Shown piece by piece: positions 11,815-33,907 of a stretch of DNA of 41,397 nt (within the stretch, counting starts at the first letter, position 1; each line of letters opens with the position of its first letter). Source of the DNA: Armatimonadota bacterium (lineage in GTDB: Bacteria; Armatimonadota; UBA5829; DTJY01); assembly GCA_017993055.1 (NCBI GenBank), contig JAGONM010000033.1, forward strand, positions 1 to 41,397. The letters are read 5' to 3'. The notes below the pieces were generated by a model that was not told the DNA's origin, made no database searches, and worked only from the letters and a program-made list of their open reading frames with translations. Position numbers and translations under genes: made by a program.

Positions 11815-12855
11815 ATGCAAACCGGCAAGCTTCCGCACAACCTGCTGGCGCAGATGCTCTCGAAGGTCGAGCTCGATGAGCGCGTGCTCGTCGGGCCCGG
11901 GATCGGCCTCGACGCAGCCGTGATCGAATTCGGCGACCGCCTGCTCGTCACGAAGACCGACCCGATCACCTTCGCCACCGACCTCATCGGCTGGTACGCC
12001 GTCAACATCAACGCCAACGACATCGCCTCGATGGGCGCCGCCCCGAAGTGGTTCATGGCGACGATCCTTCTGCCGACCTCCTGCGAGCCTTCCGATGTCG
12101 AGGCGATCTTCGACCAGATCACCTCCGCCTGCCGCGACCTCGGCGTCACCCTCGTCGGCGGCCACACGGAGATCACGCACGACCTCGACCGCCCGATCGT
12201 CGTCGGATGCATGCTCGGGGAGACCGACCGCGCGCGGCTCGTGACTGCAGGCGGATCGGGGGTGGGGGACGACATCCTCGTGACCAAGGGGATCGCGGTC
12301 GAAGGTACATCGCTTCTCGCGCGCGAGGCCGGAGACCGTCTGCTTCAGATGGGGTTCACGCACGAGTTTCTCGACCGGTGCAAGCGGTTCCTCTTTGAGC
12401 CGGGGGTCAGCGTCGTGAAGGATGCTCGAATCGCGACCGAGGCGGTCAACGTCAACTCGATGCACGACCCGACGGAGGGCGGACTTGCGACGGGGCTGAT
12501 GGAGATAGCGGAGGCGTCCGGCCTGGGGCTGGAGGTCGATCGCGAGGCGATCCCGGTACTGCCGGAGACTCAGTCACTCTGCCGGGAGTTGGGGCTCGAT
12601 CCGCTCGGCCTGATCGCGTCCGGTTCGCTGCTGCTGACCGCCTCAGCGGCCGATACCCCGCGCCTGCTGGAGGCTCTCGGCCAGTCGGGTATCCGCGCGA
12701 ACGTCATCGGCCGCATGATGCCCCGCGAGCACGGCCTCAGGATGCGAACACCCGCCGGGGCGGCCGATCTGCCCTCATTCACCCGTGATGAGATCGCCCG
12801 CTTCTTCGATGGGCGTCCCTCTGAGGCCAGTCACCAGTCTGGAGGTTCGGAATGA
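11815..12855 (+). CDS. AIR-synthase-related protein (HypE/PurM-like fold)
   Basis: The 346 residues have the two-domain AIR-synthase fold. The N-terminal half has the ATP-binding pieces GPGIGLDAAVIEFG, TDPITFA and NINANDIASMGAAPKWF, with the Asn-Asp pair that holds Mg-ATP. The C-terminal half has the glycine-rich DPTEGGLATGLMEIAEASG and LIASGSLLLT. Close relatives are often annotated as hydrogenase expression protein HypE, but the C-terminal PRIC motif of true HypE, whose cysteine is cyanated, is absent. It is therefore an AIR-synthase-related enzyme of unknown substrate, possibly a small-molecule kinase. It overlaps the next gene by ATGA. Confidence 0.78.
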   Translation: MQTGKLPHNLLAQMLSKVELDERVLVGPGIGLDAAVIEFGDRLLVTKTDPITFATDLIGWYAVNINANDIASMGAAPKWFMATILLPTSCEPSDVEAIFDQITSACRDLGVTLVGGHTEITHDLDRPIVVGCMLGETDRARLVTAGGSGVGDDILVTKGIAVEGTSLLAREAGDRLLQMGFTHEFLDRCKRFLFEPGVSVVKDARIATEAVNVNSMHDPTEGGLATGLMEIAEASGLGLEVDREAIPVLPETQSLCRELGLDPLGLIASGSLLLTASAADTPRLLEALGQSGIRANVIGRMMPREHGLRMRTPAGAADLPSFTRDEIARFFDGRPSEASHQSGGSE

Positions 12856-14633
12856 AGCTCTTTCTCGCAGCGACACTGCTCCTGCATATCTCGTGTCTTT
12901 GTGTCTCAGCGGAACTCAGTATCTCGCGGGCTTTCTACCGTGACTCGAATGCGAGTCTGCATCTCTTCCTCGTCAATCAGGGCGCTGAGCCGGTGTCGCT
13001 GATGCCTCCGGTCGTGAACGGGACGGATTGCTCGTCCCTTGGCAGAGACGGCGCGAACGTCGGTGACGTCCTCTGGTACCGATGCCGCCCGAACCCGATC
13101 TCCCCGGGAGAGATCGCCGACCTTACTATCACACTGGCCGCACCGACCGACAAGCCTGTCACCGTGGAACTGGCTGGATCATCGGGTGACAAGCTGCGAA
13201 GGACGATCCGCTGTGGGCCTGAACACGTTCGATTCCAGGCAGTCCGGTTCAGCGCTGATCTGCGTACCGTGGACGTCTACGTGCGTTGTGACGACCTCGC
13301 CCTCCGGCGCGTCCGAATGGACGGGAAAGACGTACGTCGGCTCTGCAGGCCGTGGCCCGCAGAGAGCTTCAGCGGCATTGCCTTCACCCGCATGGCCCTG
13401 ACGGAGCCGCTGGCGGCGAACTCCTTCCACGTTTTCGATGTCGAAACGCAGGACGGCGGTTCAACCGCCTGCCAGGTCCGCGCCATCCCGGCCGAGTTTC
13501 TGATCGGAGTTTACGGCGTGCCCAGCGCGCCCAACCTGGCCGACTGGCTCGCGCACGGCATTGACCATCACCTCTCTTTCGGGGCCGTCAACGCCGATAC
13601 GCTCGATCTATGCGCCGAGCAAGGCGTAAGCGTCGGCTCGAAATACATCGCGGAGCCTCTCGTGAACCGGGACAGCGGGAATGTGCCGATCTTCGATGAA
13701 GAGGTCGCACGCGCGTCATTCGCTGCGGCGTCAGGGAAGCCGTCTCTGCTCTACCACCACCTTGTTGATGAGCCCGACGTGGCCGACTACTATGCCGGCC
13801 GCAAGCTCGGGGCCACCGCAATGGAACTCGCCTCGCGGGCCGAGTTCTGCGAGGTCACCGATCCGGGCCGATACACTTTCGTGCAGCTCGACAACACATT
13901 CCGACCGGACAACTACCGCGTCTACGGCGAGAGCGCCGATGTCCTGGCGACTCACAGGTACTCACTGGGCAACTACCTCCGAAGCGAGGCCGGAGAGTCC
14001 TCCGTCAAGCGCCTGCCGTTTCTGGAGGACATGGTCGAGACACTCGACCGCTTCCGCGCGGCGACGGAGCCGAGGCCCTTCTTCATGGTGCCGCAGTTCT
14101 TCAACCTCGGACCGGCGCGCTCCGGTCGCGCTCCGACCATCGAGGAGATGCGCCTGCAGTGCTACCTGATGATCGCACGCGGCGCCAGCGGAGTCATCCA
14201 CTACATACACTCCGGCTCGACAGGCGGCGGAGAGGGCGCCCGCACTCCTGCGCTCTGGGATGCCATGACCGGTCTTCACGCCGAGTTGAAACGCGTTGGA
14301 GGCTTCATTGCTTCCGGCACTCCCTCGCCACCTGAATCCGTCACGTGCGACTCACCGAACGTGCTTGCGAGCGGGCTCCTGTGCGGAGATCGCATGGCCT
14401 TGGTGCTGATCAACCTGAGCCACCGGTCGGCTCTCGACCGTTTCACCGTCATCGCGAACCGCGGCATCAGTATACGGATTGCCGTTCCGCCGTGGATGGA
14501 CGCATCGGCGCTCGACGTTGTTCCTGCCGAGGGAGGTGCGCCTCTGGTGGTCGCCCGAGATCGTGTCGGGCTGAGCTTCACGGTTGAGGAGGTCGCTGTC
14601 GCGCGTTGCCTCTTCGTTCGGCCGAGGGAGTAG
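12852..14633 (+). CDS. secreted TIM-barrel glycosidase-like protein
   Basis: This 593-residue protein has a signal peptide (MKLFLAATLLLHISCLCVSA) and a strong GGAGG 6 nt before the ATG; the start codon overlaps the stop of the HypE-like gene. Residues 20-210 look like beta-sandwich domains. The middle is a probable TIM barrel with LLYHHLVDEPDVADYY, again an acid pair in D-E-P, and YLMIARGASGVIHYIHSG. The end is a further beta domain (ALVLINLSHRSALDRFTV). It resembles the protein at 392-1648 in layout and in the D-E-P segment, and neither sequence shows a substrate. Family assignment is inference from the fold. Confidence 0.72.
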   Translation: MKLFLAATLLLHISCLCVSAELSISRAFYRDSNASLHLFLVNQGAEPVSLMPPVVNGTDCSSLGRDGANVGDVLWYRCRPNPISPGEIADLTITLAAPTDKPVTVELAGSSGDKLRRTIRCGPEHVRFQAVRFSADLRTVDVYVRCDDLALRRVRMDGKDVRRLCRPWPAESFSGIAFTRMALTEPLAANSFHVFDVETQDGGSTACQVRAIPAEFLIGVYGVPSAPNLADWLAHGIDHHLSFGAVNADTLDLCAEQGVSVGSKYIAEPLVNRDSGNVPIFDEEVARASFAAASGKPSLLYHHLVDEPDVADYYAGRKLGATAMELASRAEFCEVTDPGRYTFVQLDNTFRPDNYRVYGESADVLATHRYSLGNYLRSEAGESSVKRLPFLEDMVETLDRFRAATEPRPFFMVPQFFNLGPARSGRAPTIEEMRLQCYLMIARGASGVIHYIHSGSTGGGEGARTPALWDAMTGLHAELKRVGGFIASGTPSPPESVTCDSPNVLASGLLCGDRMALVLINLSHRSALDRFTVIANRGISIRIAVPPWMDASALDVVPAEGGAPLVVARDRVGLSFTVEEVAVARCLFVRPRE

Positions 14634-14635
14634 AG

Positions 14636-15637
14636 ATGCTCGTATCCGTGCTGATGCCCGCCCGTGATGCCGCCGGAACCGTCCATCTGGCCGTCGCGAG
14701 TCTCCTGCGCCAGACGTTCGCGGACTTCCAGATCGTTGCTGTGGACGACGGCTCGACCGACCGCACGGGGGACATCCTGGATCAGATGGCCGAGCAGGAC
14801 CCTCGTCTCAAGCCGATCCATCTGCCTCGCTCCGGACTGGTCCCCGCCCTCAATGCCGGGATCGAAGAATGCCGGGGCGACCTCGTCGTCCGTATGGACG
14901 CGGACGACATCTGCCACAGGGAGCGCCTTCGCCTCCAGGTTGCGTACATGTGCGACAACCCGGATATCAGCGTGTGCGGGTGCCTCGTCCGCTCGTTTCC
15001 CAGGAGCGCGGTCCGGGCCGGGTTTCTCCGTTACGAACAGTGGCTGAACTCTCTGACGAATCACGACGAGATCGTGCGCGACATCTTTGTAGAGAGTCCT
15101 CTCGCGCACCCGAGCGTCGCGATGCGGGCGTCCGACTTGCGGGAGGTCGGTGGATATGCGGATGTCGGCTGGCCGGAGGACTACGACCTCTGGCTGCGGC
15201 TCTTCACGGCGGGCAAGCGGTTCGGCAAAGTTCCGCGTACGCTCCTCTTCTGGCGCGAATCCCCCGGGAGACTCACGTTCACGGATTCGCGCTACTCGCT
15301 CGAAAACTTCATGCGCATCAAAGCTCGCTTCCTGGCGGTACTGGCAGAGAGGAGCGCCCGACCTGTCATCGTTTGGGGCGCGGGAATGACGGGGCGCCGG
15401 CTGACCAAACACCTCGTCCGGGAGGGTGTCCAGCCCGTCGCTGTGGTGGATATCGATCCGCGCAAGATTGGGCGACGGCTTCGAGGCGCGCCTGTCATCT
15501 GGCCTGAGCAGCTTGCGGAGCATGGTGATGCTCTCGTAATCGCCGCCGTGGGATCGGATGGAGCCAGGGAACTGATCCGAGAGAGGCTGCGTGGAATGGG
15601 ACGCGTCGAGGTGCGTGATTTCATCTGCGCGGCATGA
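14636..15637 (+). CDS. family 2 glycosyltransferase with C-terminal nucleotide-binding-like domain
   Basis: It starts 2 nt after the stop of the previous gene, with GAGGGAG 5 nt upstream. The first 220 residues are a GT-A fold: VSVLMPARDAAGTV, VDDGSTDRT (D37-D38, nucleotide) and the metal-binding DxD in VRMDADDICHRERL (88-90), then EDYDLWLRL, typical of GT2 enzymes. Residues 245-333 form a second Rossmann-like unit (PVIVWGAGMTGRRLTKHL, AVVDIDPRKIGRRL) as in sugar-biosynthesis accessory domains that bind NAD or coenzymes. The enzyme probably transfers a sugar to a surface glycan or lipid in the cytoplasm; donor and acceptor are unknown. Confidence 0.88.
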   Translation: MLVSVLMPARDAAGTVHLAVASLLRQTFADFQIVAVDDGSTDRTGDILDQMAEQDPRLKPIHLPRSGLVPALNAGIEECRGDLVVRMDADDICHRERLRLQVAYMCDNPDISVCGCLVRSFPRSAVRAGFLRYEQWLNSLTNHDEIVRDIFVESPLAHPSVAMRASDLREVGGYADVGWPEDYDLWLRLFTAGKRFGKVPRTLLFWRESPGRLTFTDSRYSLENFMRIKARFLAVLAERSARPVIVWGAGMTGRRLTKHLVREGVQPVAVVDIDPRKIGRRLRGAPVIWPEQLAEHGDALVIAAVGSDGARELIRERLRGMGRVEVRDFICAA

Positions 15638-15911: not shown

Positions 15912-15987
15912 TCCTCGGTAGCTCAATTGGCAGAGCACTTGGCTGTTAACCAGGGGGTTCGTGGTTCGAGTCCACGCCGGGGAGCCA
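15912..15987 (+). tRNA. tRNA-Asn (anticodon GUU)
   Basis: The cloverleaf closes by eye. The acceptor stem is TCCTCGG (15912-15918) with CCGGGGA (15977-15983), one G-T pair. The D stem is GCTC/GAGC, the anticodon stem CTTGG/CCAGG with loop CTGTTAA and anticodon GTT at 15945-15947. The T stem is CGTGG/CCACG around TTCGAGT. The discriminator is G, and CCA is encoded (15985-15987). The tRNA is intact although a serine recombinase gene ends within it, so integration here kept or restored the gene. Confidence 0.97.
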
Positions 15988-17538
15988 AATTTCAGTTTTG
16001 GCCACCTCATCGAACTTCCCACCGTAGTTATCAACAGCGTTCTTCTGCGTTTCCACGATCAGATCGAACGGTTTTCGGTATGATGGCAGCAGCATTCCGT
16101 CCTTCCAAATCGAGTTCGAGAATACCGTATCTAGTATCTTCCGCTTGTCGCCGGATTCCTGCCGTTCGAACAGGGCGGCAGCTCCATCGGCCAGTTCGAG
16201 AATTGTGACTCCCTTATCGAGGTACGCCCGGTTTGCTCGTTGATGCGTCTCGATGTGACGCATGATATCTTGTTGCTCCTGAGTCCATTCCTCGCTCTTG
16301 CGCTCGTACATCTCCCGGGATATCGTGCCATCCAGCTTGTCTTCATACATGGCGTCTATCCGTCCCTGAATCTTCGTGTACTGCTGCTGAAAGGTGGAGA
16401 TCGCCTGGCTGTGATGCTCCTTCTCATCCCTGTGGCTCTCTTTGAGTACAACCCTAAGCCATTCGAGGACGTCCGAATCCATCTTCATCGCCCGAAGTGC
16501 TTCGCTAAACTGGCGGGTAAGCTCCTCCTCCCGGGCGTATTTCTCGGGACATCTGCCCTTATGACCCGTGCAGTGATAGTAGGTGTACTTCGCCTTCTTG
16601 ACCTCGGGAGTCAGGGCACAGCCGCAATGGCCGCACCGCAGCAGCCCTCGGTACAGCCACTGGTGCTTCTGCTGTCTGGTCTTTCGCCGTCCCTTTTCGG
16701 CCAGCGTCTCCTGTACCGTATCCCACAGGTCTTTTGACACGAGTGGCTCGTGAGTGCCACTGTAGTGCTTGCCAGCCCAATAGATGTCTCCGTAATACAG
16801 CGGGTTGGTCAGCATCTTGTGGATGAGGCTCTTCTGGATTCGATTGCCGCTCTTTCGATATGCCAGACCGTCCTCGCGAATCTTTCTCGTTACCTCGAGA
16901 AGCGAGTACCTGCCGGTGGCGTAGAGCTCGAACAGCGTGCGGACCAACTGAGCGGTTGCGGGATCCGGCTGAATGGACCTCTTGTCGCCGCAGCGGACAT
17001 TGATGTAGCCGATGGGGGCACACGAAGGCCAGATACCCTGCTCCGCCTTCTCGACCATGCCTTTCTTGGTCTCCTCGGACAGGTTGTCTATGTAGTTCTT
17101 GGCCATCAGGACTTTGATCCCATGCATAAACTTCTCGGTGGAACGAGAGTCAGGGGAGAGTATGACATTCTCTTTGACGAAGTGTATCTCCAACTGCAGT
17201 TCGTCGAGCGTCACCCAGTCCTTGAGGTTGCGGTACAGGCGGTCGGTCTTCTCGACAAGGATCACACGACAGGAGTTATCCACTGCCTGCAGTGCGCTCT
17301 TGAAGAACGCGACCATGTCGTTGAACGAGGTTCGTCCGGCCTGCTTGGCTGTCTCGACATCGGTGTACTCGCGTCTTATGACGAGCCCATGTTCTGTGGC
17401 GTAGTCCCTTAGAAGCTTGAGTTGGGCCGGTATCGAGAAGCCCTCCTTTTCCTGCTCCTTCGATGAGACTCGGGCATAGACGATAGCTTCAGCAGGGGGT
17501 GTCTCCGCAGATTCCCCGCGTCTTCCATGGTTTCTCAT
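15946..17538 (-). CDS. large serine recombinase (integrase)
   Basis: The 530-residue protein has a resolvase catalytic domain (about 18-160) with the nucleophile in YARVSSKEQ (S25). A Recombinase DNA-binding domain (about 175-290, with SLIHKMLTNPLYYGDIYW) and a zinc ribbon (C302, C305, C323, C330 in CGHCGCAL and YHCTGHKGRC) follow, then a coiled coil (about 360-430). Such enzymes join attP and attB through a covalent serine link without host factors. The last residues (GVDSNHEPPG) are the reverse complement of the tRNA-Asn 3' half, and the stop codon TAA is read from the anticodon loop. The ATG at 17538 overlaps the stop of the 119-residue gene (ATGA), so the two form one operon. Confidence 0.95.
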   Translation of the reverse strand: MRNHGRRGESAETPPAEAIVYARVSSKEQEKEGFSIPAQLKLLRDYATEHGLVIRREYTDVETAKQAGRTSFNDMVAFFKSALQAVDNSCRVILVEKTDRLYRNLKDWVTLDELQLEIHFVKENVILSPDSRSTEKFMHGIKVLMAKNYIDNLSEETKKGMVEKAEQGIWPSCAPIGYINVRCGDKRSIQPDPATAQLVRTLFELYATGRYSLLEVTRKIREDGLAYRKSGNRIQKSLIHKMLTNPLYYGDIYWAGKHYSGTHEPLVSKDLWDTVQETLAEKGRRKTRQQKHQWLYRGLLRCGHCGCALTPEVKKAKYTYYHCTGHKGRCPEKYAREEELTRQFSEALRAMKMDSDVLEWLRVVLKESHRDEKEHHSQAISTFQQQYTKIQGRIDAMYEDKLDGTISREMYERKSEEWTQEQQDIMRHIETHQRANRAYLDKGVTILELADGAAALFERQESGDKRKILDTVFSNSIWKDGMLLPSYRKPFDLIVETQKNAVDNYGGKFDEVAKTEIWLPGVDSNHEPPG

Positions 17539-18143: not shown

Positions 18144-18749
18144 TTACCGGCCTTCCTGTTCGTCCTCCTCACGGTCTTTGTCGTAGAGTGCCTTGAGTGC
18201 CGAACTCAGGATCCCCAACGCCCCGGCCAATCCGGCGTTCGCCGGTCCGTCGGCCATCTCAAGCATCGCGAATCCTGCCCTCGCGCTCTTGGTCGCCTCG
18301 GCGGTCTTGCCCTGTACAAGCTGCGAGTGCGCGAGCGTTACCAGTGCACCCCCATATGTTCTCAGGGCGTGCTTGACGTGCGGCAGGCATATGCCTATCG
18401 CCTTCGCGGCCAGTTCCTCTGCCTGCGTACAGTCGCCGGCATCCAGGCACGCCTGTCCCCAAGACTCCGTCGTCTCAGCCAACCGCAAGTCCTCGCATCC
18501 GTACATGGTCTCCTCGAGCGCCGCCAGTTCTTCGAACGTCCTCCGCGAGGCGTCGTGCTCGTCACCGAACTGCAGCGCATGGGCGTAATCACGCATCACC
18601 CTGGTAGTGTCCTCGGACCATCCGTGTCCGCTGTCGTGCAGCTCCCTGAGCGCGGCATGCAGGCATTCCTGCGCGCGCTCGAACTCGAAGTTGCCGATGG
18701 CTTCCACGCCTTCTTGATACAACTCCCGCCATTTCTCTTTCTCCGTCAT
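18144..18749 (-). CDS. TPR-like helical repeat protein
   Basis: This 201-residue all-helical protein has the alternating small and large residue pattern of TPR units: EGVEAIGNFEFERAQECLHA, then RVMRDYAHALQFGDEHDASR, then CLDAGDCTQAEELAAKAIG and LVQGKTAEATKSARAG. It carries no catalytic motif and no signal peptide, so it is probably a cytoplasmic scaffold or partner-binding protein. The start has AAGGAAAT about 5 nt upstream. It is on the same strand as the recombinase operon but separated by a hairpin and a promoter, so it looks like an independent cargo gene of the element. Confidence 0.75.
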   Translation of the reverse strand: MTEKEKWRELYQEGVEAIGNFEFERAQECLHAALRELHDSGHGWSEDTTRVMRDYAHALQFGDEHDASRRTFEELAALEETMYGCEDLRLAETTESWGQACLDAGDCTQAEELAAKAIGICLPHVKHALRTYGGALVTLAHSQLVQGKTAEATKSARAGFAMLEMADGPANAGLAGALGILSSALKALYDKDREEDEQEGR

Positions 18750-19528: not shown

Positions 19529-21112
19529 ATGGCATACAACCTCAAACCACTTTGGATCACCGAAGATTACGACAAGCGACTTACCAGCTACGGGATCGCG
19601 TCACCCCAACTGCGCAAACTGCTGCTGTGGAGCACGTCCGGTATGGTGGCCGAGGAGTTAAGCACCCATACGGTCGTCCCACAGCCGTTGATCGAGACGA
19701 TCTTCGGGAGCAACACCCCGCTGGCGGAGGTGGAGACTCGCTGGTCTACTTCGACCACTGTGCCGATCGACATCGTGCCCAGCAACCACTTCTGTGGGCT
19801 GGCGGCGACGCTCCGGATCGAGCTGCCACCCGACTTGCTAGCCCTACACATAGAGGCATGTCGGGCGGGTAACCGTGACAAGCCTGAGAAGTTGAACATG
19901 GTCACCGGCGAGTCCTGGAGCGCCTACAAGGAACGAAAAGAAAGAAACGCGGAGGCTGATGAGGCTCAGGCGTACATTGCCACACTGCCAGCCGGCAGTC
20001 AGGTGCGGGAGATGATCTCTCGACTGGGTCAGCCGCGGGTCGGCAAGTACGTGAACTCATTGCTCCGCGAAAACAAGGAGGGCATCGATGTTGCGCTTGC
20101 CCGACTGCTCTATTCGCCGATCTTTGTCGAGTATGTGTCTCAGGGACCCCTCTGGGATCGGCTGAGTCGGGACCTGGGCGTAGGTCCGGATCGCGAGCAG
20201 GATCTGGTTACCTTGTGGGATCTGTGCAGGTGTGGGATCAAGACCATGACGGGCGCGGTCGGCAAAGAGTTGGCCGAGAAATTCGCGAAGCTGCCGGTAG
20301 TCCAGGAAAGAATGCGACGCTGGAAGGCCTACGAGCGAGCCCACACGCTGTTGGCAGTCAACCGTGGGCCCTACTACAGATGCACCTGCAACTCCCCGCG
20401 CGTATTTGCCGCCGGCGCCAATCTGATGCAGCTGCCCAGAGCTGTCAGGGCTGCGGTATTCGCCGGCTGCTGGAACATCGACATGAGCCAGTGCCAGCTG
20501 CGAATCGTTGCCAAGATCTGGGGCATCCCTGAGGTGAATGCATACCTGCTGAAGGGCGATCCCTGGTCTAACTTGACCGCTGATCTTGGTGTCGATCTAA
20601 GCCGCAAAGATGATGTCAAGCAGATGATCTACTGCACCGTGTACGGTGGGTCGAAGGCCCGGTTGAAGAAAGACCACCCGGACCTCGCGCGCCGCTTCTT
20701 GAAGCACCCGATGGTCTGTGCGCTATGGGCGGCCCGCGAGCGCATCAAGGATCAGATTGCTGAGGCTGGCTACATCGTCGACTGCAATGGTGAGATCCAC
20801 GAAGTGGGGGCCGTAGGTGGTAAAGACTCGAAGTCAGAGTGCATTAGGTCACTGATGGCGCGGCAGGTTCAGAGTTACGAGTTCGCGATGATGGCTGCCG
20901 GCGAATCGGTAGTTGCGAAGGATCATGACATGATGACAGTGGCCTGGCTGCATGATGGGATCTACGTGGCGATCACGAATCATGAGGATTGCGCAGCCTA
21001 CAAGGTCAAGGAGATCGCAGAGGCAATAATCGCTAAAGCTAAAGGGTTTGGCATTACAATGAATGTGGATTCGAAACTATTAGAGAAATCGCGAAAAAGC
21101 TTAGGGGATTAG
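19529..21112 (+). CDS. minimal family A DNA-polymerase-like protein
   Basis: This 527-residue protein has the palm motifs of family A polymerases. ANLMQLPRAVRAAV resembles the NLQNIP...R segment before motif A. Motif A is NIDMSQCQLRIVAKIWG (D318), against DYSQIELRILA in Pol I. Motif B is RKDDVKQMIYCTVYGG (K364, Y368, Y372), in register with the O-helix Lys, Phe and Tyr. Motif C is WLHDGIYV (H475, D476), against HDE. The position equal to Pol I F762 is Tyr, as in T7 DNA polymerase. No 3'-5' exonuclease motifs are seen in the first 300 residues. I chose ATG 19529 (AAGGAG 5 nt upstream); 19526 is equally possible. It may replicate the element; activity is inference, and the Gly in motif C is unusual. 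Confidence 0.75.
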   Translation: MAYNLKPLWITEDYDKRLTSYGIASPQLRKLLLWSTSGMVAEELSTHTVVPQPLIETIFGSNTPLAEVETRWSTSTTVPIDIVPSNHFCGLAATLRIELPPDLLALHIEACRAGNRDKPEKLNMVTGESWSAYKERKERNAEADEAQAYIATLPAGSQVREMISRLGQPRVGKYVNSLLRENKEGIDVALARLLYSPIFVEYVSQGPLWDRLSRDLGVGPDREQDLVTLWDLCRCGIKTMTGAVGKELAEKFAKLPVVQERMRRWKAYERAHTLLAVNRGPYYRCTCNSPRVFAAGANLMQLPRAVRAAVFAGCWNIDMSQCQLRIVAKIWGIPEVNAYLLKGDPWSNLTADLGVDLSRKDDVKQMIYCTVYGGSKARLKKDHPDLARRFLKHPMVCALWAARERIKDQIAEAGYIVDCNGEIHEVGAVGGKDSKSECIRSLMARQVQSYEFAMMAAGESVVAKDHDMMTVAWLHDGIYVAITNHEDCAAYKVKEIAEAIIAKAKGFGITMNVDSKLLEKSRKSLGD

Positions 21113-21376: not shown

Positions 21377-22174
21377 ATGTTCGACACAAGATACCTCGCG
21401 GACGATTCCACCGCCTCCGTCAGCGCCGAGTTCGGCCAGGCAACCCTCCGAACAACCGGCGAATCCGACTGGCTAACCGCGACCGATCTTGCCGGCAACA
21501 CCTGGATACCCGCATCTACAAAGATCCGCTACGCGTGCAACACCGATGGGTCCGCGCCCACTGCATATCTCGAAAGCGCAGACGCAGAAGCCTGCCTCGA
21601 CGGCGACCGCGGAACCATGTGGGTCGAGGAGACCGGAAGCAGCACCGACGTGTTCCTCGAGATTCAAGTACCTACGGACGTTATGACCAACATGCTGGCG
21701 AATACGCTCGTGCTCCGCCCGTTCCCTGTGCTGTGCCACGATCTGGTTTCGGTGGATGTGATATCAACCAGCGGGAACGTATACTCGCTGTCCGGCGCAA
21801 GGCTCGCTTACCTCCCCGGATACTCTACGGGAGATGAGATAGTACACTGCATTGGCGACATCCGCCTGTTCTTCCCGCCGACCGCGGTTGCATCGCTCAG
21901 GATACACCTGCAGGCGGGCGCGTTCCCGTACTGGGGATTCTCGGAGGTGTCGCTTAAGACCACGACGTTCGCATCGACCTCCAGCCTGTCGCTCGACCTT
22001 GCCGCGGTGGCCGGCACCTCGAGCCTCTCCGCGGCCGAGCTGTGCGGGGACGATTCGGAGTACCTCTCGGCGTTCCCTGCTACCATAGTGGGCAACACCG
22101 TGAAGTGGGGCCTCACACAGCGGGGCGCGGGGTACACGCCGGTGATCACCTCGGTGCGGACGGAGTGGTTGTGA
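21377..22174 (+). CDS. beta-rich hypothetical protein of phage-structural type
   Basis: A 265-residue protein with no close family recognised. The composition (Ser, Thr, Ala, Val, few Lys) and the predicted strands fit a jelly-roll or tail-fibre-like fold. The segment ACLDGDRGTMWVEETG followed by VFLEIQVP resembles discoidin (F5/8 type C) carbohydrate-binding domains, where D-G-D-x-x-T-x-W precedes a strand ending in -P. It has no signal peptide. No ribosome site stands in front of the ATG, and an open frame continues upstream up to an in-frame TGA, so the true N-terminus may be longer. Confidence 0.6.
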   Translation: MFDTRYLADDSTASVSAEFGQATLRTTGESDWLTATDLAGNTWIPASTKIRYACNTDGSAPTAYLESADAEACLDGDRGTMWVEETGSSTDVFLEIQVPTDVMTNMLANTLVLRPFPVLCHDLVSVDVISTSGNVYSLSGARLAYLPGYSTGDEIVHCIGDIRLFFPPTAVASLRIHLQAGAFPYWGFSEVSLKTTTFASTSSLSLDLAAVAGTSSLSAAELCGDDSEYLSAFPATIVGNTVKWGLTQRGAGYTPVITSVRTEWL

Positions 22175-22584: not shown

Positions 22585-23301
22585 TCAGTACGTCCACGTC
22601 TCGTGCGCCAACGGCTCGCGGTTCAGTTCCTCGCGATTCAGTCGCCACTGGGGAAGGAATGCATCCATATGAGCCTTGAACGCATCGCTATGGAGGCGTT
22701 CGAGAAGATGGACCATCTCGTGAACCACAAGGTACTCGAGACACTGCGGCGACTTCTTGATCAACTCCAGGTTGAGCCATATCCGAGCCGCTTGCGCATT
22801 ACATGATCCCCACCTGGTCTTCATCTGCTTGATTCCCCAGTCGGCCACGGTCACGCCGATGATCGGCTCCCATTTCGCAATCATGGGTGCAGCTTGAGCC
22901 TTCAGTTGCCTACGGTACCACTGAAGAAAGATGCGCTCACGCGTCGCCGTGTCACTGCCTTTCCGCACGTACAGGTCAATTCTCTTCTTACCGCGAAGCT
23001 CCACTCTGGGCCAGCCGTCATGGTAGATCACGTTCAGCAGGTAGCGCAGTCCCTGGAAGTAGTGGCTCTCCCCGGATACGTACTCACGCGCCGATTGCCG
23101 CTCCTGCTCCTGGAAACTCCTCTGCTGGCGTCGAATCCAGCCCAGCTTCGAGATAACCGCGAGCCTCACCGCCTCGTCGTTGACGCGCAAGGGCACGGCG
23201 ACGCGCACCCTCCCTGCTGGCGGGTAGACGGCAAGGTGCAAATTCTTGATGTCCTTGCGGACCACATCCACGGTTAGGTCGTTGACGGTGATCTGATGCA
23301 T
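22585..23301 (-). CDS. YgjP/DUF45-type metallopeptidase linked to the type I restriction operon
   Basis: The 238-residue protein has the zincin motif VVHEMVHLLERLHSDAF (HExxH with a downstream ligand region) and the family's WGSCNAQAARIWLNLELIKK just before it. Proteins of this YgjP-like M48-related group are often found directly downstream of hsdR, as here, with 2 nt between stop and start. The role is not established: it may process or remove restriction subunits. It is the last gene of the minus-strand operon hsdM-hsdS-hsdR. Confidence 0.9.
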   Translation of the reverse strand: MHQITVNDLTVDVVRKDIKNLHLAVYPPAGRVRVAVPLRVNDEAVRLAVISKLGWIRRQQRSFQEQERQSAREYVSGESHYFQGLRYLLNVIYHDGWPRVELRGKKRIDLYVRKGSDTATRERIFLQWYRRQLKAQAAPMIAKWEPIIGVTVADWGIKQMKTRWGSCNAQAARIWLNLELIKKSPQCLEYLVVHEMVHLLERLHSDAFKAHMDAFLPQWRLNREELNREPLAHETWTY

Positions 23302-23303: not shown

Positions 23304-26300
23304 TCAGTACTCAGGCTGGTTTTTCACAAGGTTGAAGATCTCCTCGACGAAGTCCTCACCCTCCACGTGTCGACGTATCGCGTTGCGCACTTCTTTCTCT
23401 TTGAACCTGTTCCCCCGCCAATCATCCTTCTTCGTCCGGCGGATATCATCGTCCAGTGTGACGGCGAGGGCTTCGTCCTTCCCGAGGTTGTCGTAAAGCG
23501 CTCTTCTGGCAGTGCTGTTCATCGCCTGCGGGTAGTCCGCCCCGCCACCGGGATTCTTTACCCTTCTGGTGATTTCGACGATCTTGGCCAGGTATTCCTC
23601 ATAGTCGAGTGCCAGTTCTTTGCGCTCCTGGATCAGGTTGTCCAGCAACTCCGACATCTTCTCATAGTACTTGGGGTTGATTGGCTGCTCGTCGATGATG
23701 ACCCTTCGCAGGTTGTTCTCGATCGTCTCGGCAGCGGCTTCCTTGTTGCCTGCGATTCCTTTGGGGAGCGCATTGACCCCCTCTTCCCCTCGCTCAAGCA
23801 GGACCTGTATCAAGCTCATGTCATCCAGGTCGGAAATCTTCTCGCTTTCCTCGGCACGGATGTAGGTATCTATGAGATGCCGCATGTCCGGTTCGTACGC
23901 CTTGAGGTCGATATAGTCGCCACTGGCGAGCCTTACCTCAGTGCGTGCCCTCTCGAAATGATCGACCTCCTGCTTCAACTGCTCGATCTCCTCCGGCGTA
24001 TACCCGGCTTCAGGCAGTTCGTTTGCGAGGTTGGCGTATGCGCGGATCAAAGAGGCCGTGAGTTTGTATAGGGCAATCCGCCTCGGCTCGTTCCCCTTCA
24101 GCGCCTCCTTGTCGGTGGTATCGCGGGCGCAGAAGTAGCGCAGGTGGGCAGCCGTATCCTTCGGCGGCTCTACGGGCTCACACAGTGCTCTGACTGCCTC
24201 TCGCGCCTCCTCCAGCTGTTCTCTCGCCTTCACCAGGCGGTTGCTCAAGAGTCCGCGAACGTCCTCGGCATCAAAGCCGTCGAACACCTCCGAGGTGTAG
24301 TCTATGAAGGCGGTCTCAAGGCTTCGGAACAGGTCCTTGTAGTCAATGACATACCCGTATTCTTTGTCATCGCCGTCCAGTCGGTTGACTCGGCAAATGG
24401 CCTGGAACAAACCGTGGTCGCGCATGTGCTTGTCTATGTAGAGGTAAGTCGCAGGAGGAGCATCGAAGCCGGTCAGCAGCTTGTCGACGACAATGAGGAG
24501 CTTCATCTGCCCCGGCTCCTCGATGAACTTCTTCTTTACCTCCTTTTCGAACTCCTCGACTCTGTTGACTGCCCGCTCGGGGTCTTGCCTGAACCAGTCC
24601 GCAAGCATTTTCTTGTATATCTCATACTCGCGCAGTCGCTCCGTGACTCCTTCGCCGGTTTCCTCCCCTTTGATCTCCGAGACGTTCGGAACGTAGGACG
24701 TAACGATGGCGCACTTATCGAAGCCGTTGTTGGTGAAAAGCTCATAGAGCCTGCATGCCTGATAGATGCTCCCGGAGACGAGCATGGCGTTCCCTCTGCC
24801 GCTCTGCAGGCGGTCGCGGGTCGCCATATCCAGCATGATATCCGCAGCGATCTTCTCCAAGCGTGAGAGGGAACTGAGCACCTTCTTCATGGTGCCCCAT
24901 TTCTCCTTAAGCTGGGCGATAGCAACATCGTTCAGCCCCTTCGTCTTGGCGTCGAACCACTGATCAATCTTCTCCTGCGATGTAATGTTCTGGTCAATGT
25001 CACGGGCCTCGTACCGCAGGTCGAGCACCACGCCGTCTTTCACTGCTTCGTCGAACTTGTAGGTGTGGATGTACTTGCCGAAGACCTCGATGCTTCTCTG
25101 CTTGTCCGCCTTCAGGAGGGGCGTGCCGGTAAAGCCGATGAGCATAGCGTTAGGCAGTACTTCCTTCATGGCTTTGTGAAGTTCACCGGACTGCGTACGG
25201 TGGCATTCGTCTACGAAGACGTATATGTCACCCTTTGCATTGAAGCCGGGAGGGAGATTGCGCTTCACCTCATCAATGAAGCCCTCTATGTCCGGTTCTT
25301 CCTTGCCGGCAAACTTGTGGACCAGGGAGCACATCAGCATGGGGATGGCAGCATTCAGTTGGCTGACGAGGTCCTGGCCGCTCTTAGTGCGATAGATATC
25401 CTCGCCGACGCCCTTGAACACCCGCTCTATCTGCTCGTCGAGTTCCGTGCGGTCGGTGATGATCAGTACTCTGGCGTTCGTGACGTTCTCCCGAATCCAC
25501 TTTGCCAGCCACACCATGACGAGGCTCTTGCCGCTGCCCTGCGTGTGCCAGATGATACCGCCCTCTCGTCGTCTCACATGGTCGTGGGCCGCCTTGACGC
25601 CGAAGTACTGGTTGTGGCGGCAGAGCTTCTTCACCCCTGCGTCGAACACTATGAAGTCATGGACGATCTCCAGCAGGCGCTCCTTCGCGCAAAGCTGAGC
25701 GAGACTCCGATGGAGCGGGTTCTCGATCTCGCTCTCTTCCTTCCACTTGAGGTAATACTTCTCGGGCGTTCCGATAGTCCCGTAACGAAGCCCTTCGGTA
25801 TCGTTACCGGCCATCACCAACTGTGCTGTGGAGAAGAACCGCTCGATGAAGACGGGTTTCTGGCTGTCGAGGTTCTGGCGGATGCCCTCGCTGACGGAGA
25901 CGATGGAGCGCTTCAGTTCCAGTATACCGAGGGCGATCCCGTTCACGTAGAGCACCACGTCCGGGCGCTTGTCGTGCTTTCCGCTGACGGTGACCTCCTC
26001 CGCGACGGCGAAGTGGTTCTCCAGTGGATTCTCCCAATCTATCAGCCAGACGTTCTCATACTGCTCGCCGACATCGGCCTTCACCTGCACGCCGTAACGA
26101 AGAAGGGTGTACACCTCCTTGTTCACATCGTAGAGACTTCTGGCCTGGTCGCCCGCGACCTTGCCGAGCTCATACAGAGCCTTGCGGATCAGTGCTTCGT
26201 CATAGCCGCGCCTCTGCAGGTAGGCGCGCAGGAGGTCCTGCTCGATGTTCCTATTATCCTCGCGGTCCTGCCGGTTGCCAAGGTAGTCGTACCCGAGGTT

Positions 26301-26363
26301 GTCCCGGAATAGCTTTATCACCCGGTTCTGCGTCGCGCGTTCCCTTTCGCCTACGGTGCTCAT
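23304..26363 (-). CDS. hsdR: type I restriction enzyme subunit R
   Basis: The 1019 residues follow the HsdR order. The N-terminal PD-(D/E)xK nuclease shows P134-D135 and E149-L-K151 ([19 protein letters not shown]). Helicase motor domains follow, with Walker A in HTQGSGKS (274-280), the DEAD-type box VFVDECHR (385-388) and motif VI in AICRVNRL. A helical C-terminus binds the methylase complex. HsdR translocates DNA from an unmethylated site and cuts at random distance. Its ATG overlaps the hsdS stop (ATGA) and should be coupled to it. Since an IS21 element now splits hsdS, transcription from the operon promoter may not reach this gene. Confidence 0.95.
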
Positions 26364-27034
26364 ATCAGCCTGATCCTCCCCGTGAGAAGTTCCTGCATCA
26401 TGCCTTGCTTGATCAGTGTTGTCTTGTCCCGTCTCTGTTCAAGCACAGCGATCTCGGCGTCCATGTCTGAGAGCACCCCGGCGATGGCTTGTTGCTCTCG
26501 GAGAGGCGGGAGCCTCACCTCATAATCTATGAACGTTGACGCATATACATGACGAATCGTGCTCCCCTGAGATAGTGCTACAATGCGACTACGATGTGAC
26601 CGCAGACTCAAGAGACGTGAAAGAAAGGATACATCCGCAGAAGTCCTGTATAGCAGAACATCACCACCAACGGCTACAGGGAAGCCCCCTGTGAAGGCTG
26701 TAGCCTGCCCGATGTTCTCCAGCATGTTTGAGGCGCTCGCGATGAGAAGATGTGGCATACTGATCGTGTGCGTGTTCTCCGGGAGCTTTGCGTAGTTCCG
26801 AATGTGGGAAGCGGCTATGACTTCCCCGAAGTCAGTGTAGATAGCTGTGTACGGAATGGCAGGAAGCCAACCGGTTGAGGACAGCGCATCTTTCGACAAC
26901 CCTCTCCCCTTGGAAAACTGGCCGATCTCCCCCAGTGTCTGCACGTCCCACTCCCCGCTGAACCCAGGCAGGCGGGTCCTGCCGGTGAGAAGTTGCTGCA
27001 TGGTAGCCTGCTTGATATCGCGCTTCTTGGCGAT
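26360..27034 (-). pseudogene. hsdS: hsdS, 3' part (C-terminal target recognition half), cut off by IS21
   Basis: The part encodes the central conserved region IAKKRDIKQATMQQLLTG, the second target recognition domain and the distal repeat [21 protein letters not shown], ending RIRLI. Its stop overlaps hsdR (ATGA). Joining 29,996-29,487 to 27,028-26,360, with one copy of the 6-bp duplication removed, gives exactly 393 codons in frame with ...KLIAKKRDIK... across the junction. The insertion is therefore recent and the gene has no other lesion. A frame from inside the IS (TTG at 27085) is open into this part, so the half subunit might still be made; half-HsdS proteins can dimerise and work in some type I systems. 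Confidence 0.95.
27029..27034. repeat. target site duplication GGCGAT, left copy
   Basis: GGCGAT here and at 29,487-29,492 flank the IS21 element directly on both sides, which is the size expected for this family. Confidence 0.9.
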
Positions 27035-27063
27035 TGTGTTTGATAAACTAAACGGGGCCCACC
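27035..27063. repeat. IS21 left terminal inverted repeat
   Basis: It matches the reverse complement of 29,458-29,486 at 25 of 29 positions, with the core GGGGCCCACC identical at both ends. Confidence 0.92.
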
Positions 27064-27157
27064 TGGGGCGGTTTCGATAACGCAAAAGGGGCCCACCCGG
27101 ACAGAACCGATCTTACGATATGATAGTTGAGAGAAACGTCATATCGGAGGTAGAAAG

Positions 27158-29421: not shown

Positions 29422-29457
29422 TGCATTTGTCCGGGTGGGTCCCTTTTACGTGATCAA

Positions 29458-29486
29458 GGTGGGCCCCTTTTGGGTTGTCAAACACA
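29458..29486. repeat. IS21 right terminal inverted repeat
   Basis: The inverted partner of 27,035-27,063. It ends in CA directly before the GGCGAT duplication. Confidence 0.92.
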
Positions 29487-29492
29487 GGCGAT
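29487..29492. repeat. target site duplication GGCGAT, right copy
   Basis: The second copy of the 6-bp duplication. It lies at the last codons of the 5' part of hsdS. Confidence 0.9.
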
Positions 29493-29996
29493 AAGCTTGT
29501 CCAGCGAACCGATGAGGGCGTCCACATCGCTCAGGGCATCGGCGATGTTGCGTTGCTCCTCTTTTGTAGATGGAACAGCAAGTCTGATGCTTAGGAGTTT
29601 CGACACCGATAGTCCCGGTTGAGCGGACGACTCGGAATAACGGTTGAGATGCATTCGCTCCAGCACATAGGTAAGCCACCGGATTTCAGTCTGGGCAAGG
29701 GGCGTCACCACAACTGCGTGCTCAGATGCAAAGAACCTTCCATCCACCCCTAACACGTTGCCACATAAAGCCCCTTGCCGCCCAATCAGTGCGTATCTTC
29801 CCTCGTGGGTAAACCGAGCCGTGAATCCTCGGAGGCCATGGCCACCATAGCATGGATAGGTCGAGAACTGATCGATCTTAGCAGAGGTTATTGCTTCACC
29901 GCTCTTCATGCGACAGACCTCGCCGAGGCTGACCACCTCCCAGTCCTGCGGGATTATCCCCGCCTCAGTCCGCTTGTAGCCCGGCTTCACTTCCAT
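29487..29996 (-). pseudogene. hsdS: hsdS, 5' part (N-terminal target recognition half), cut off by IS21
   Basis: 170 codons encode the start of a specificity subunit: VKPGYKRTEAGIIPQDWEVV, the first target recognition domain (KSGEAITSAKIDQF, ALIGRQGALCGNV) and the helical spacer EEQRNIADALSDVDALIGSL. Translation now runs 3 codons into the IS and stops at 29478. The ATG overlaps the 3' end of hsdM by 10 nt. HsdS chooses the DNA sequence methylated and cut by the complex. A truncated product with one recognition domain could form a dimer with altered, palindromic specificity, as reported for some type I systems; whether it does so here is unknown. Confidence 0.95.
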
Positions 29997-32437
29997 GCGA
30001 ATCCCATATCCTTCAGGTGTTCATCCACCCTGGTGCTCAGATCTTCGACCTCTTCTCCCAGCTTCGGCAGAGGAATAGCATAGCGTTCCGCCAATTCCCG
30101 GGTGCGTCCGGTCAGTGACTGGGACACCCGGTCCAGTTCGGAACGCACATGGGCGGCAAGGGATGCCAGCCACTTGTCGTCCACCACCAGCACGATCACT
30201 TCCTCGTCGGTAAGCTCTCCGTACCTGGCTGCCAGCTTCACATCGAGCGCCTTCCGGGCGTCCTTCATCTTCTTCGTTGTCTCGGACTCCTTCTCGACAA
30301 GGGCGAGGTACTTCTCCAGCACCTCGCGCTCGTCAGCGAAATCGGAGTCACCCTTGATCTCACGGAGGCGCGACTTCACATCCCCTTTCGTGACCTTTCC
30401 GTTCTCGGCCATGACCTCGGAGAGGAGCCCTTCTTCTCCGCCGTGCTCATCCCTCATCTCTTCCACTTCCTGCGCCAGTCGGGCGATCTCCGCCTCCAAC
30501 GCATCAATGGCCTGCTGCTCTTCCGCATAGTACCGGGCGATCAGCAAGGAAGGTGGAATCAGGTCGGCCTTGTACTTCCGTTTGCCAAGTACCAGATCGG
30601 GTTTCTCTTTCACCTTCTTGTCTTCAACTACCAGGCGGAGACGGCTTGCCTCAGCCCAGCCGTCCGAAGCGATCATGTACACATCGTCCTGCATGACGTC
30701 GGACCAGTAACTCATCAGGTGCTGGTAGACATCGTAGGAGTCTATCAGCTTGACGTCCCGGAAGGTCGAGAGCATGTCCTCCGACAGAACTTCGATTAAC
30801 TGCTTGGGCTTGGTATCGGTCGAGATGCCTTTCAGTGTCGCAACATGGGCATCTTTCCACCTGTCAAACAAGGTGGCTACCGCCTGGGTGTACGCCGCAA
30901 ACTCAGGCCGCGCGCATATCGTAGGCTTGACTTCAGCGGCGTCGACTCTCATCTGACTGTAGCCTGCCCGGTCCCCCGGCATGAAAAGCTGATCCTTCAG
31001 CGAGGGGAACACCTGCCAGTATTCCGACAGAACCTCCACGTCTCTGTTGGGAATGCCTCCAAGAAGATGTGCCTCGATATCCTGGAGGTCCTCCGGTTCG
31101 GTGGCGTCAATGTACCGGGGGATGTTCAGGTTGAAGTCATTGCCTTCGATCTCCGCCATCGGGACCATGCGCGAATATCTTGGGACTTCCCTCTGATTAT
31201 TGAAGACGTCTACGATCCGGTGGATGTCCTGATGACGCAGGCGGTTCTTGTTGCCGTCCTTCACGAAACCCTTGCTCGCGTCAATCATGAAGATGCCTGT
31301 TCGTCCGGCGGCGCTCTCCTTGTCCAGGACGATGATGCACGCGGGGATGCCTGTGCCGTAGAACAGATTGGCAGGGAGGCCGATGATTCCCTTGATGTAT
31401 CCCCTGCGAAGGATATTCCTGCGGATGACCGCCTCCGAGTTCCCCCGGAAGAGGACACCATGCGGGAGGATGATCGCGCCCTTGCCGGTGCTCTTCAGCG
31501 AACGTATGAGGTGCAGGAGGAAGGCATAGTCCCCGTTCTTCTTCGGCGGCACGCCGTCCACAAAGCGCTCATAGCGGTCGTTGTAGGGGTCAAAGCCCTG
31601 GCTCCAGGACTTCGTCGAGAACGGCGGATTGGCCACGGCGAAGTCGAACGTCTTGAGGCTTCCGTCCGGATTCTTGAAGTGCGGGTCGGCAAGGGTGTTG
31701 CCCTGCCAGATATCGTGCGCCGCAGCCGGGCAGTCATGGAGGATCATGTTCATCCTCGCAAGTGCAGCGGTGGCGTTGTCCATCTCCTGCCCGTAGATAG
31801 TCAAGTCGAGTCCGCTCGGGGCTTCATCGTGCGCCTTGATAAGCAGTGAGCCCGATCCGCAGGTCGGGTCGTAGATGGTCTGGGCGGAACTCGTCGCCTG
31901 TCCGACGCCGATGACCTTCGCCATGATGCGGGATACCTCGGCGGGAGTGTAGAACTGCCCCTTGCTCTTGCCCGATTGCTCCGCGAAGTTCCGCATCAGG
32001 TACTCGTAAGCGTCGCCGAGGATGTCGTCGTCTTCCGCCCGGTTCTTGCTGAAGTCGAGCCCCGACTCCTCGAAGATGCCGACGAGGTTGGTAAGGCGGT
32101 CTACCATCTCCTGGCCCTTGCCCAGCTTGTCGGGGTCATTGAAGTCGGCAAGGTCTATCACGCCCTTGAGTTCATTGGCCTCCGCCAGCCTGGCGATGAT
32201 TACGTTGATGCCCTCGCCGATATCCTTGTCACCCTTCAACGCGACCATATCGGCAAAGCTGCCGCCTTCAGGAACCTCAAGAAGTGCGTCCGGTTGTCCG
32301 GCGTACTTGTCAGAGACGTACTTGACGAAGAGCAGGGTCAGAATATAGTCCTTGTACTGAGAGGCATCCATGCCGCCGCGCAGTTCGTCACAGCTTCGCC
32401 AAAGGTGGCTGTAGAGTTCGCTTTTCTTAATCGCCAT
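29987..32437 (-). CDS. hsdM: type I restriction-modification methylase subunit M
   Basis: The 816-residue N6-adenine methyltransferase has an N-terminal helical HsdM_N domain, the lead-in GQFYTPAEVSRIMAKVI, motif I DPTCGSGS (190-197) for S-adenosylmethionine and the catalytic motif IV NPPF (270-273). It is about 300 residues longer than a classic HsdM. The extension after about residue 500 holds a long coiled coil (EEQQAIDALEAEIARLAQEVEEM) and a helical end. The extension resembles that of other long HsdM proteins and probably takes part in complex assembly. It is the first gene of the operon. No strong promoter is seen directly upstream. Confidence 0.95.
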   Translation of the reverse strand: MAIKKSELYSHLWRSCDELRGGMDASQYKDYILTLLFVKYVSDKYAGQPDALLEVPEGGSFADMVALKGDKDIGEGINVIIARLAEANELKGVIDLADFNDPDKLGKGQEMVDRLTNLVGIFEESGLDFSKNRAEDDDILGDAYEYLMRNFAEQSGKSKGQFYTPAEVSRIMAKVIGVGQATSSAQTIYDPTCGSGSLLIKAHDEAPSGLDLTIYGQEMDNATAALARMNMILHDCPAAAHDIWQGNTLADPHFKNPDGSLKTFDFAVANPPFSTKSWSQGFDPYNDRYERFVDGVPPKKNGDYAFLLHLIRSLKSTGKGAIILPHGVLFRGNSEAVIRRNILRRGYIKGIIGLPANLFYGTGIPACIIVLDKESAAGRTGIFMIDASKGFVKDGNKNRLRHQDIHRIVDVFNNQREVPRYSRMVPMAEIEGNDFNLNIPRYIDATEPEDLQDIEAHLLGGIPNRDVEVLSEYWQVFPSLKDQLFMPGDRAGYSQMRVDAAEVKPTICARPEFAAYTQAVATLFDRWKDAHVATLKGISTDTKPKQLIEVLSEDMLSTFRDVKLIDSYDVYQHLMSYWSDVMQDDVYMIASDGWAEASRLRLVVEDKKVKEKPDLVLGKRKYKADLIPPSLLIARYYAEEQQAIDALEAEIARLAQEVEEMRDEHGGEEGLLSEVMAENGKVTKGDVKSRLREIKGDSDFADEREVLEKYLALVEKESETTKKMKDARKALDVKLAARYGELTDEEVIVLVVDDKWLASLAAHVRSELDRVSQSLTGRTRELAERYAIPLPKLGEEVEDLSTRVDEHLKDMGFAWK

Positions 32438-32641
32438 TCGGCCTATACCCCTATGTCAACCAGCTGGTCATATGATGCCATAGCGAACTGGCGAGGTTCG
32501 GCCTGCTCGGAAGGTCCGCCGGTGCATCTTGGAAGAACCGAAGTTCGGGCTCATTGAACTCGCGGGTCACGCGTGACTCCCTACAACTGATTCTCGATGC
32601 AGACCGCCCGAAGACTCCGAGGACTGCAGGAGTGCCGTGAT

Positions 32642-32666
32642 GACCGGAATGTGGATCGCTCCGGTC
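32642..32666. repeat. inverted repeat GACCGGA-N11-TCCGGTC
   Basis: Perfect 7-bp arms with an 11-nt spacer between divergent defence genes. Possible operator. Confidence 0.45.
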
Positions 32667-32692
32667 GCTGGCAGTTGCCGGGCCGCCAACCA

Positions 32693-32714
32693 TCCGCACG
32701 GGCGCCCGTGCGGA
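32693..32714. repeat. perfect 22-bp palindrome
   Basis: The two 11-nt halves TCCGCACGGGC and GCCCGTGCGGA are exact complements with no spacer. It lies between divergent hsdM and the NucS-like gene. With no loop it is more likely a dimer-binding site than an RNA hairpin. Confidence 0.6.
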
Positions 32715-32836
32715 ACAGCCTCATCTTAAGCCGACTAGAGGAAGTTGTCAAGGCATCGGCGAATGCAATACCGATCGCATATCCGAGGATCAGCGCACTT
32801 CCCGGCAGGTCCTGCCACGAGACAGGAGGTATCCGC

Positions 32837-33907
32837 ATGTCGAGTCGGAGTCCGATTCAGGCCGGCCTATCAGACTACGAGGCCGCAATCACGGCTCTGC
32901 GCGAGAAGTTGCCGTCTGCGCTCAGTCACCCGGATGTAGGACCGATAGCTGCTGCGAAGGAACAGGTGATCGGCCACTACGGCCCTCTCTTCAGGGCTGA
33001 CAGTCTTGGCAGCGTCAATCTTGACGAGTTCCGGTCGTTCTTGGACTTCCGCAACAACAGGCACTGGGGCGGACTCCACCGGCAGGTTGGCTTCATATTC
33101 GCAGATCCTCCAGCTCTTCGGAATGTGCTCTACGTACTGGCTGACGAAGGCCGGCCAGTGGAGGAGCGGATCGACAACGCGGTTGCCGGGGTTCAGGGTA
33201 TGGGCAAGGCCATCATCACGGCTTTTCTCCACGTCGCTTACCCTGAGAAGTACGCTGTCTGGAACAACACGGCCGAGGGAGCGCTCAAGCAGATCGGACT
33301 CTGGCCGGCCTTCGATAGGGGTGCTACCGTTGGGGCGAAGTACTCAAGGATCAATGATCTCATCAAGCGCATTTCGGCTGATTTGGAGCTGGATCTCTGG
33401 ACTTTGGACGCGGTCTGGTGGGCATTGGTGCAGCCGGAAGTGCCTCAGCCCCCCGTTGTTACTCCAAAGGAGACATCCACTGGTGTCACTCCTCCCGGCC
33501 AGGCGTTTGGCCTCGAACGTCATCTCCATGAGTTCCTGGTAGACAACTGGGCAGGAACTGAGCTCGCAAGTGAGTGGGATATCTACTCCGAGGACGGTGA
33601 TCGCTTGACGGGCATCGAGTACCCTTGTGCGGTCGGGTACATTGACATTCTATGCAGGCACAAGACTCAGACCCGCTGGCTGGTGATCGAGTTGAAGCGG
33701 GGACAGACAAGCGACGCGACAGTGGGGCAGGTGCTCAGGTATATGGGTTGGGTAGGCAAGGAACTCGCCTCGGCTGATGAGAAGGTCGAGGGTCTAGTGA
33801 TCGCGCATTCAGGCGACAATGCTTTGAAGTATGCGTTATCCCCGCTCCCGAACGTTCGCCTTATGTTGTATGAGGTCGAGTTTCGACTGACCTCGGCGAG
33901 CGGCTGA
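32837..33907 (+). CDS. NucS-like PD-(D/E)xK nuclease with N-terminal recognition-like domain
   Basis: The ATG at 32837 has a perfect AGGAGGT 6 nt upstream and gives 356 residues. The C-terminal domain (about 225-350) has the NucS/DUF91 nuclease core: GYIDIL (D270), LVIELKRG (E285, K287) and TVGQVLRYMGWV (Q298). The first 200 residues contain RNNRHWGGLHRQ and GVQGMGKAIITAFLHVAYPE, a helix-hairpin-helix-like segment also met in proteins of the McrB type, followed by a proline-rich linker. It could cut modified or mismatched DNA, and a role as a modification-dependent restriction enzyme is plausible beside a type I system. Target and activity are inferred from the fold. Confidence 0.8.
   Translation: MSSRSPIQAGLSDYEAAITALREKLPSALSHPDVGPIAAAKEQVIGHYGPLFRADSLGSVNLDEFRSFLDFRNNRHWGGLHRQVGFIFADPPALRNVLYVLADEGRPVEERIDNAVAGVQGMGKAIITAFLHVAYPEKYAVWNNTAEGALKQIGLWPAFDRGATVGAKYSRINDLIKRISADLELDLWTLDAVWWALVQPEVPQPPVVTPKETSTGVTPPGQAFGLERHLHEFLVDNWAGTELASEWDIYSEDGDRLTGIEYPCAVGYIDILCRHKTQTRWLVIELKRGQTSDATVGQVLRYMGWVGKELASADEKVEGLVIAHSGDNALKYALSPLPNVRLMLYEVEFRLTSASG

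Follow-up and report, generated by a model that had tools for sequence, protein, structure and literature searches.

Iyer, Abhiman and Aravind described the TV-Pols, minimal standalone polymerases of superfamily A whose genes are linked to restriction-modification operons and to resolvases of the gamma-delta type and lambda-type integrases; one example they gave is SCCmec (PMC2579912). Rice and colleagues found that CcPol, the family A polymerase of SCCmec, synthesizes DNA without a primer as CcPol-MP, with priming requiring the partner MP, and they catalogued numerous PolA-SSB pairs encoded close to large serine recombinases (PMC7581432, PMC10061031). A family A counterpart of pipolins, which the initial annotation of the locus analysed here had regarded as new, was thus preceded by the TV-Pols (2008) and the PolA-SSB primases (2020/2023).

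Here we analyse a polymerase of this kind in a 41,397-nucleotide stretch of Armatimonadota DNA (the window). The gene and its active-site positions, in window polymerase numbering, are:

19529..21112, + strand: standalone polymerase of family A, TV-Pol-like, 527 aa, with the palm and fingers core at about residues 300-521 (alignment, profile, structure model)
20399..20401, + strand: R291, template-hairpin arginine, invariant (family alignment)
20480..20482, + strand: D318, motif A catalytic aspartate, invariant, in DMSQCQLR (family alignment)
20495..20497, + strand: Q323, at the Pol I E710 steric-gate position, Gln in nearly all members (alignment, Pol I comparison)
20618..20632, + strand: motif B, from K364 (invariant) to Y368 at the Pol I F762 position (alignment, Pol I comparison)
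20951..20959, + strand: motif C, H475-D476-G477, with D and G invariant (family alignment)

The reading frame is intact (527 aa plus stop, inside a 573-codon open frame), with a good ribosome-binding site and the start context AAGGAGAG-ATGATG, in which the ATG at 19526 or 19529 is the start. Searched alone, the protein matched Pfam DNA_pol_A with E=0.012 and 15 bits, below the 34.3 cut-off; phmmer against the PDB returned no polymerase among its matches, and no NCBIfam family was matched. Because these single-sequence matches are weak, a reading of motifs alone is no proof, and relatives were required for the test. The profile check on DNA_pol_A proposed in the initial annotation stayed below the cut-off for the single sequence. 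A 14-member family profile, by contrast, detects Pol nu (2e-7), Taq (2e-6), Klenow (3e-4), T7 DNA polymerase (0.008) and also Pol theta. Profile-profile comparison with the host's own Pol I gave E=9.5e-7.

Structure prediction, likewise proposed in that annotation for the palm, produced a predicted palm and fingers that resemble family A enzymes. The AlphaFold2 model is confident for these two subdomains only (about residues 310-520); with it, Foldseek retrieved Taq at 1.9e-8, and structure comparison with Pol theta, Bst and T7 gave Z scores of 15-17. Modelling was poor for the thumb and for the N-terminal part. The N-terminal domain is family-wide, and its separate model (pLDDT 49.5) was not used; its helix-strand order recalls a winged helix, a likeness that we do not count as evidence.

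Conservation was read from the 14-member family alignment, whose members share ~20% identity. R291, D318, K364, G373, Q448, E451, D476 and G477 are invariant in all 14, and Y368 is kept in at least 90% of the alignment. Tyr at the Pol I F762 position and HDG instead of HDE in motif C had been read from the window sequence beforehand; both hold as family features. The Gln at the E710 steric-gate position, replaced by His in one member, was absent from that reading. In the fingers motif, position 360, ahead of the invariant K364, is Lys in most members and Arg in a few. The host Pol I (G000:C4, 922 aa) has motifs A, B and C in common with the window polymerase but reads DYSQIDLR, Phe at 762 and HDE, at which points the 527-aa window protein differs.

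The invariant active-site set, together with the profile and fold matches, settles the assignment: by alignment and modelled fold, the window gene product belongs to the family A polymerases, and we strongly predict that it is active as a polymerase. Motifs A, B and C, as originally noted, are supported by alignment, profiles and predicted fold. So is the lack of a visible exonuclease domain in the 527-residue protein, in which no nuclease profile matched and for which the 14-member alignment contains no invariant N-terminal Asp or Glu. Profile placement elsewhere or unconserved catalytic aspartates had been named as findings that would count against the reading; the profiles instead point to family A and the aspartates are conserved.

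Other identities were considered for the gene product. A chance motif match is ruled out by the invariant residues of the 14-member alignment, and phage-type RNA polymerases are absent among the profile and fold matches listed. Host Pol I is ruled out, as the genome encodes a normal 922-aa Pol I elsewhere, which makes the window protein an extra polymerase.

The family is patchily distributed. A single-sequence search found polymerase matches in 14 of 291 genomes of the phylum, and the window protein was absent from four other genomes of the same GTDB family. A collection scan with a four-member alignment as query recovered hosts named Armatimonadetes, together with a Patescibacterium (L063), a Chthoniobacter MAG (L065) and a Rhodothermia MAG (L066). 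With a further member on a Deinococcus megaplasmid, the branch spans Armatimonadota, Patescibacteria, Verrucomicrobiota, Rhodothermia and Deinococcus, and its maximum-likelihood tree is mostly unresolved. MAP_030 of phage Ma-LMM01, presumably the TV-Pol of that phage (it was picked because the phage is listed and the gene lies beside transposases), matched the family profile weakly (E=0.003; hhalign 4e-4, from hairpin to HDG). A closer link is the homologue encoded directly before repA on the 7.2-kb plasmid pW9NP1. No relative was found in viral contigs scanned with the protein and the four-member alignment, or in 50,697 phage records beyond matches of E about 1 to T7-like polymerases, which leaves a phage-gene origin unsupported. 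In two loci, an ATPase-like protein adjoins the polymerase start (L024 10884-11699 and L025 8270-9082); it has a P-loop-like motif by eye and no Pfam match, and could be a replication partner.

The following features surround the polymerase gene in the window:

12852..15625, + strand: host left flank including a glycosyltransferase, conserved ahead of tRNA-Asn in three relatives (synteny)
15912..15987, + strand: tRNA-Asn(GTT), probable integration hotspot, at which the island would begin on its left side (tRNA call, synteny)
15946..17538, - strand: large serine recombinase with Resolvase, Recombinase and Zn ribbon domains, full length (Pfam)
18144..18749, - strand: TPR protein, 201 aa, with a homologue adjoining the polymerase of G018
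21377..22174, + strand: 265-aa protein, no match over the cut-off in a Pfam scan

The tRNA-adjacent serine recombinase of the initial annotation was confirmed: the gene at 15946-17538 (-) is convergent with and overlaps tRNA-Asn (15912-15987), and its last codons, encoding the C-terminal tail GVDSNHEPPG, lie inside the tRNA. A tRNA-anchored search found relatives of the left flank. The segment 12852-15625 and tRNA-Asn are common to three of them, with unrelated DNA beyond, and a fourth shares tRNA-Asn only; the contig of one of the three stops just past the tRNA, and the downstream DNA is visible in the other two and the fourth. GC content drops from ~0.63 to ~0.57 at tRNA-Asn. Shared flank and tRNA, differing downstream DNA and the GC drop together make tRNA-Asn the probable integration hotspot and left border of an island. 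An empty-site search via the AIR-synthase gene reached a locus without the tRNA.

Apart from a 13-nt chance-level match, no attR repeating the tRNA 3' end, and hence no right border, was found in the 41-kb contig. The serine recombinase, the TPR protein and the polymerase are thus the minimum content of the island; judging from composition, the type I restriction-modification genes to ~34 kb most probably belong to the same element. Upstream of the polymerase lie two pairs of AT-rich direct repeats of 13-14 nt (19346-19373 and 18029-18062; for example, TAAGTTTTGCCCC / TAATATTTGCCCC), which could be regulatory, iteron-like or due to chance.

The pairing of polymerase and recombinase, which the initial annotation had proposed to look for in other genomes, recurs. 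In 13 genomes of the phylum, a recombinase lies within 20 kb of 12 of the 14 polymerase genes (1.1 expected) and within 2.5 kb of seven (0.14 expected), where the expectations derive from recombinase gene number and genome size under uniform placement and, as islands cluster, overstate the significance of the linkage. Outside the phylum, L063, L065 and L066 each have a recombinase within 6 kb of the polymerase. The partner in relatives is mostly a tyrosine recombinase, and a large serine recombinase occurs within 6 kb in only three loci (window, L063 and G080). A tRNA overlaps the recombinase or lies within 400 bp of it in seven loci (window, L026, L029, L030, L063, L065 and L066).

The patescibacterial locus L063 repeats the window architecture in compact form, the polymerase and recombinase genes together spanning ~4 kb. 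There the polymerase is followed after a 0.4-kb gap by a large serine recombinase whose 3' end overlaps tRNA-Ile and whose tail, SGGTRTPDQ, is tRNA-encoded. Both recombinase tails, GVDSNHEPPG (window 15946-15987) and SGGTRTPDQ (L063 13622-13653), are encoded antisense to the tRNA 3' end, and integration may thus set or swap the tail.

Downstream of the polymerase, the window encodes the following candidate cargo:

22585..23301, - strand: YgjP-like metallopeptidase, putative cargo (Pfam)
23304..26363, - strand: HsdR, type I restriction subunit, putative defence cargo (Pfam, NCBIfam)
26360..27085, - strand: HsdS fragment with one specificity domain; an IS21-like insertion separates it from the remaining half
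29478..29996, - strand: N-terminal half of HsdS, a fragment that overlaps hsdM at the end of that gene
29987..32437, - strand: HsdM, type I methyltransferase subunit, putative defence cargo (Pfam, NCBIfam)
32597..33907, + strand: NucS_C-domain nuclease, PADLOC candidate defence family PDC-S02

The IS21-like insertion (27035-29487; IstA with rve/Mu-transpos_C_2, and IstB) cuts hsdS into these one-domain fragments, and the type I system of the window is therefore probably impaired. A 56-nt segment at 22383-22438 is 75% identical to the right end of the insertion (29432-29487) and is perhaps the remnant of another copy. At 35383-36189, an RtcR/CARF-like N-terminal domain is joined to a Fis-type HTH, with no AAA domain detected; this may be a shortened CARF regulator, and an ankyrin protein (36297-38039) is its neighbour.

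Defence genes occur within ~10 kb of the polymerase in 11 of 17 loci (raw count). They include type I restriction-modification (window, L021, L022, L024 and L025), Gabija (L018), DISARM-like DrmD helicases (L021, L023 and L026), type IIG systems (L026, L027 and L066) and a Cas9-like ORF (L065); ArdC antirestriction genes are found in four loci. Islands gather defence genes in general. The Cas9-like ORF of L065 is an N-terminal half of 452 aa (14385-15740), near the contig end and downstream of the polymerase.

We observe family membership, an intact conserved active site, a tRNA hotspot and recurrent linkage to recombinase and tRNA, and consider it probable that the window encodes an active, exonuclease-less polymerase of the TV-Pol kind that copies the DNA of a recombinase-moved tRNA-Asn element. 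The large serine recombinase would insert the element at the 3' end of tRNA-Asn and excise it as a circle, or the element would arrive in a new cell in single-stranded form. The polymerase would then copy the element, by second-strand synthesis or replication, probably using host helicase and single-strand binding protein, before re-integration at the tRNA; the type I restriction genes and the nuclease would be cargo that pays for the upkeep of the element. Genomic context makes a role in element replication likely, and the element may replicate itself, as originally suggested. A Pfam scan of the ORFs recognized neither a D5-type helicase nor an SSB gene beside the polymerase, which makes autonomy doubtful.

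One form of the element-copying explanation goes further, and we hold it possible but rather doubtful: the enzyme would be a primer-independent primase-polymerase and, by analogy with pipolins, the whole element self-synthesizing. Protein class and genomic setting are as in TV-Pols and PolA-SSB pairs (PMC2579912, PMC10061031), and with Gln for the E710 steric gate and Tyr for F762, ribonucleotide exclusion may be weaker; CcPol, however, needs MP and itself keeps E710 and F762 (PMC7581432, PMC10061031), and no MP-like partner was recognized in the window. A different role, within a module for defence or anti-defence in which the polymerase would, for example, fill or copy DNA while restriction or a phage attack is under way, would account for the defence genes near 11 of the 17 loci and for ArdC in four. 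This role is quite improbable, because the adjoining system varies by locus and forms no conserved operon with the polymerase, whereas recombinase and tRNA do recur, and the count is a raw one from islands that collect such genes anyway. The severed hsdS and the existence of broken relatives (G164, a second copy in G080 and a partial G143) would instead suit a decaying relic, an element now fixed whose polymerase is no longer important. Against this, the window ORF is full length with all invariant catalytic residues and a good ribosome-binding site, and the serine recombinase is full length too; we judge decay improbable.

Beyond the element-copying explanation favoured for the window, the family might form a widespread, tRNA-targeted and defence-carrying class, copying itself with a primer-independent and ribonucleotide-tolerant Gln/Tyr/HDG polymerase that requires no helicase from the element, and using serine and tyrosine recombinases interchangeably. 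This extension is speculative and, as we see it, unlikely; if true, the class would be a real family A analogue of pipolins outside Bacillota.

To our knowledge, the biochemistry of TV-Pols is almost nil beyond CcPol of SCCmec. The branch found here has a distinct active site (Gln steric gate, O-helix Tyr and HDG) and occurs in several poorly studied phyla. Its compact tRNA-linked elements would offer a simple system for asking how, with no dedicated helicase, a family A enzyme may start or copy mobile DNA; the same elements bear on how defence islands move.

Among described systems, TV-Pols are likewise proteins of 400-600 aa that lack a nuclease and have an absolutely conserved Arg in a beta-hairpin, two Asp and a basic-xxx-K finger motif, on resolvase or integrase elements amid restriction-modification operons (PMC2579912). 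Their fingers read RxxxK, whereas the first finger residue of the window family is Lys more often than Arg; they have a linked D5-like helicase or N-terminal helical domain, and no D5 helicase was recognized among the ORFs scanned here. The tRNA targeting and range of defence cargo of the window family are absent from that text, as are its phyla, other than a planctomycetes/verrucomicrobia-like breadth (PMC2579912). The window polymerase is TV-Pol-like and probably belongs to a divergent branch. MAP_030 of Ma-LMM01, our presumed TV-Pol, likewise has HDG.

CcPol-MP and the PolA-SSB pairs likewise have a family A polymerase, whose gene lies on an integrative element close to one large serine recombinase or two (PMC7581432, PMC10061031). 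CcPol keeps the E710 and F762 equivalents (PMC7581432), where the window polymerase has Q323 and Y368, and a CcPol-type primase identity fails on these residues. CcPol, known from Bacillota, is also accompanied by a partner with an OB fold and by a COG3378/DUF927 helicase; in the window no partner was recognized, nor a Pfam helicase beside the gene. Pipolins likewise combine their own polymerase with recombinases, tRNA integration and restriction-modification genes (PMC7385651), so that the resemblance first noted holds for the element setting as a working likeness. It does not extend to the enzyme: piPolB is an unrelated family B polymerase, membership of the pipolins fails for a family A protein, and the likeness is analogous only. 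The window element thus extends a known, little-studied class of self-copying elements and does not found a new one.
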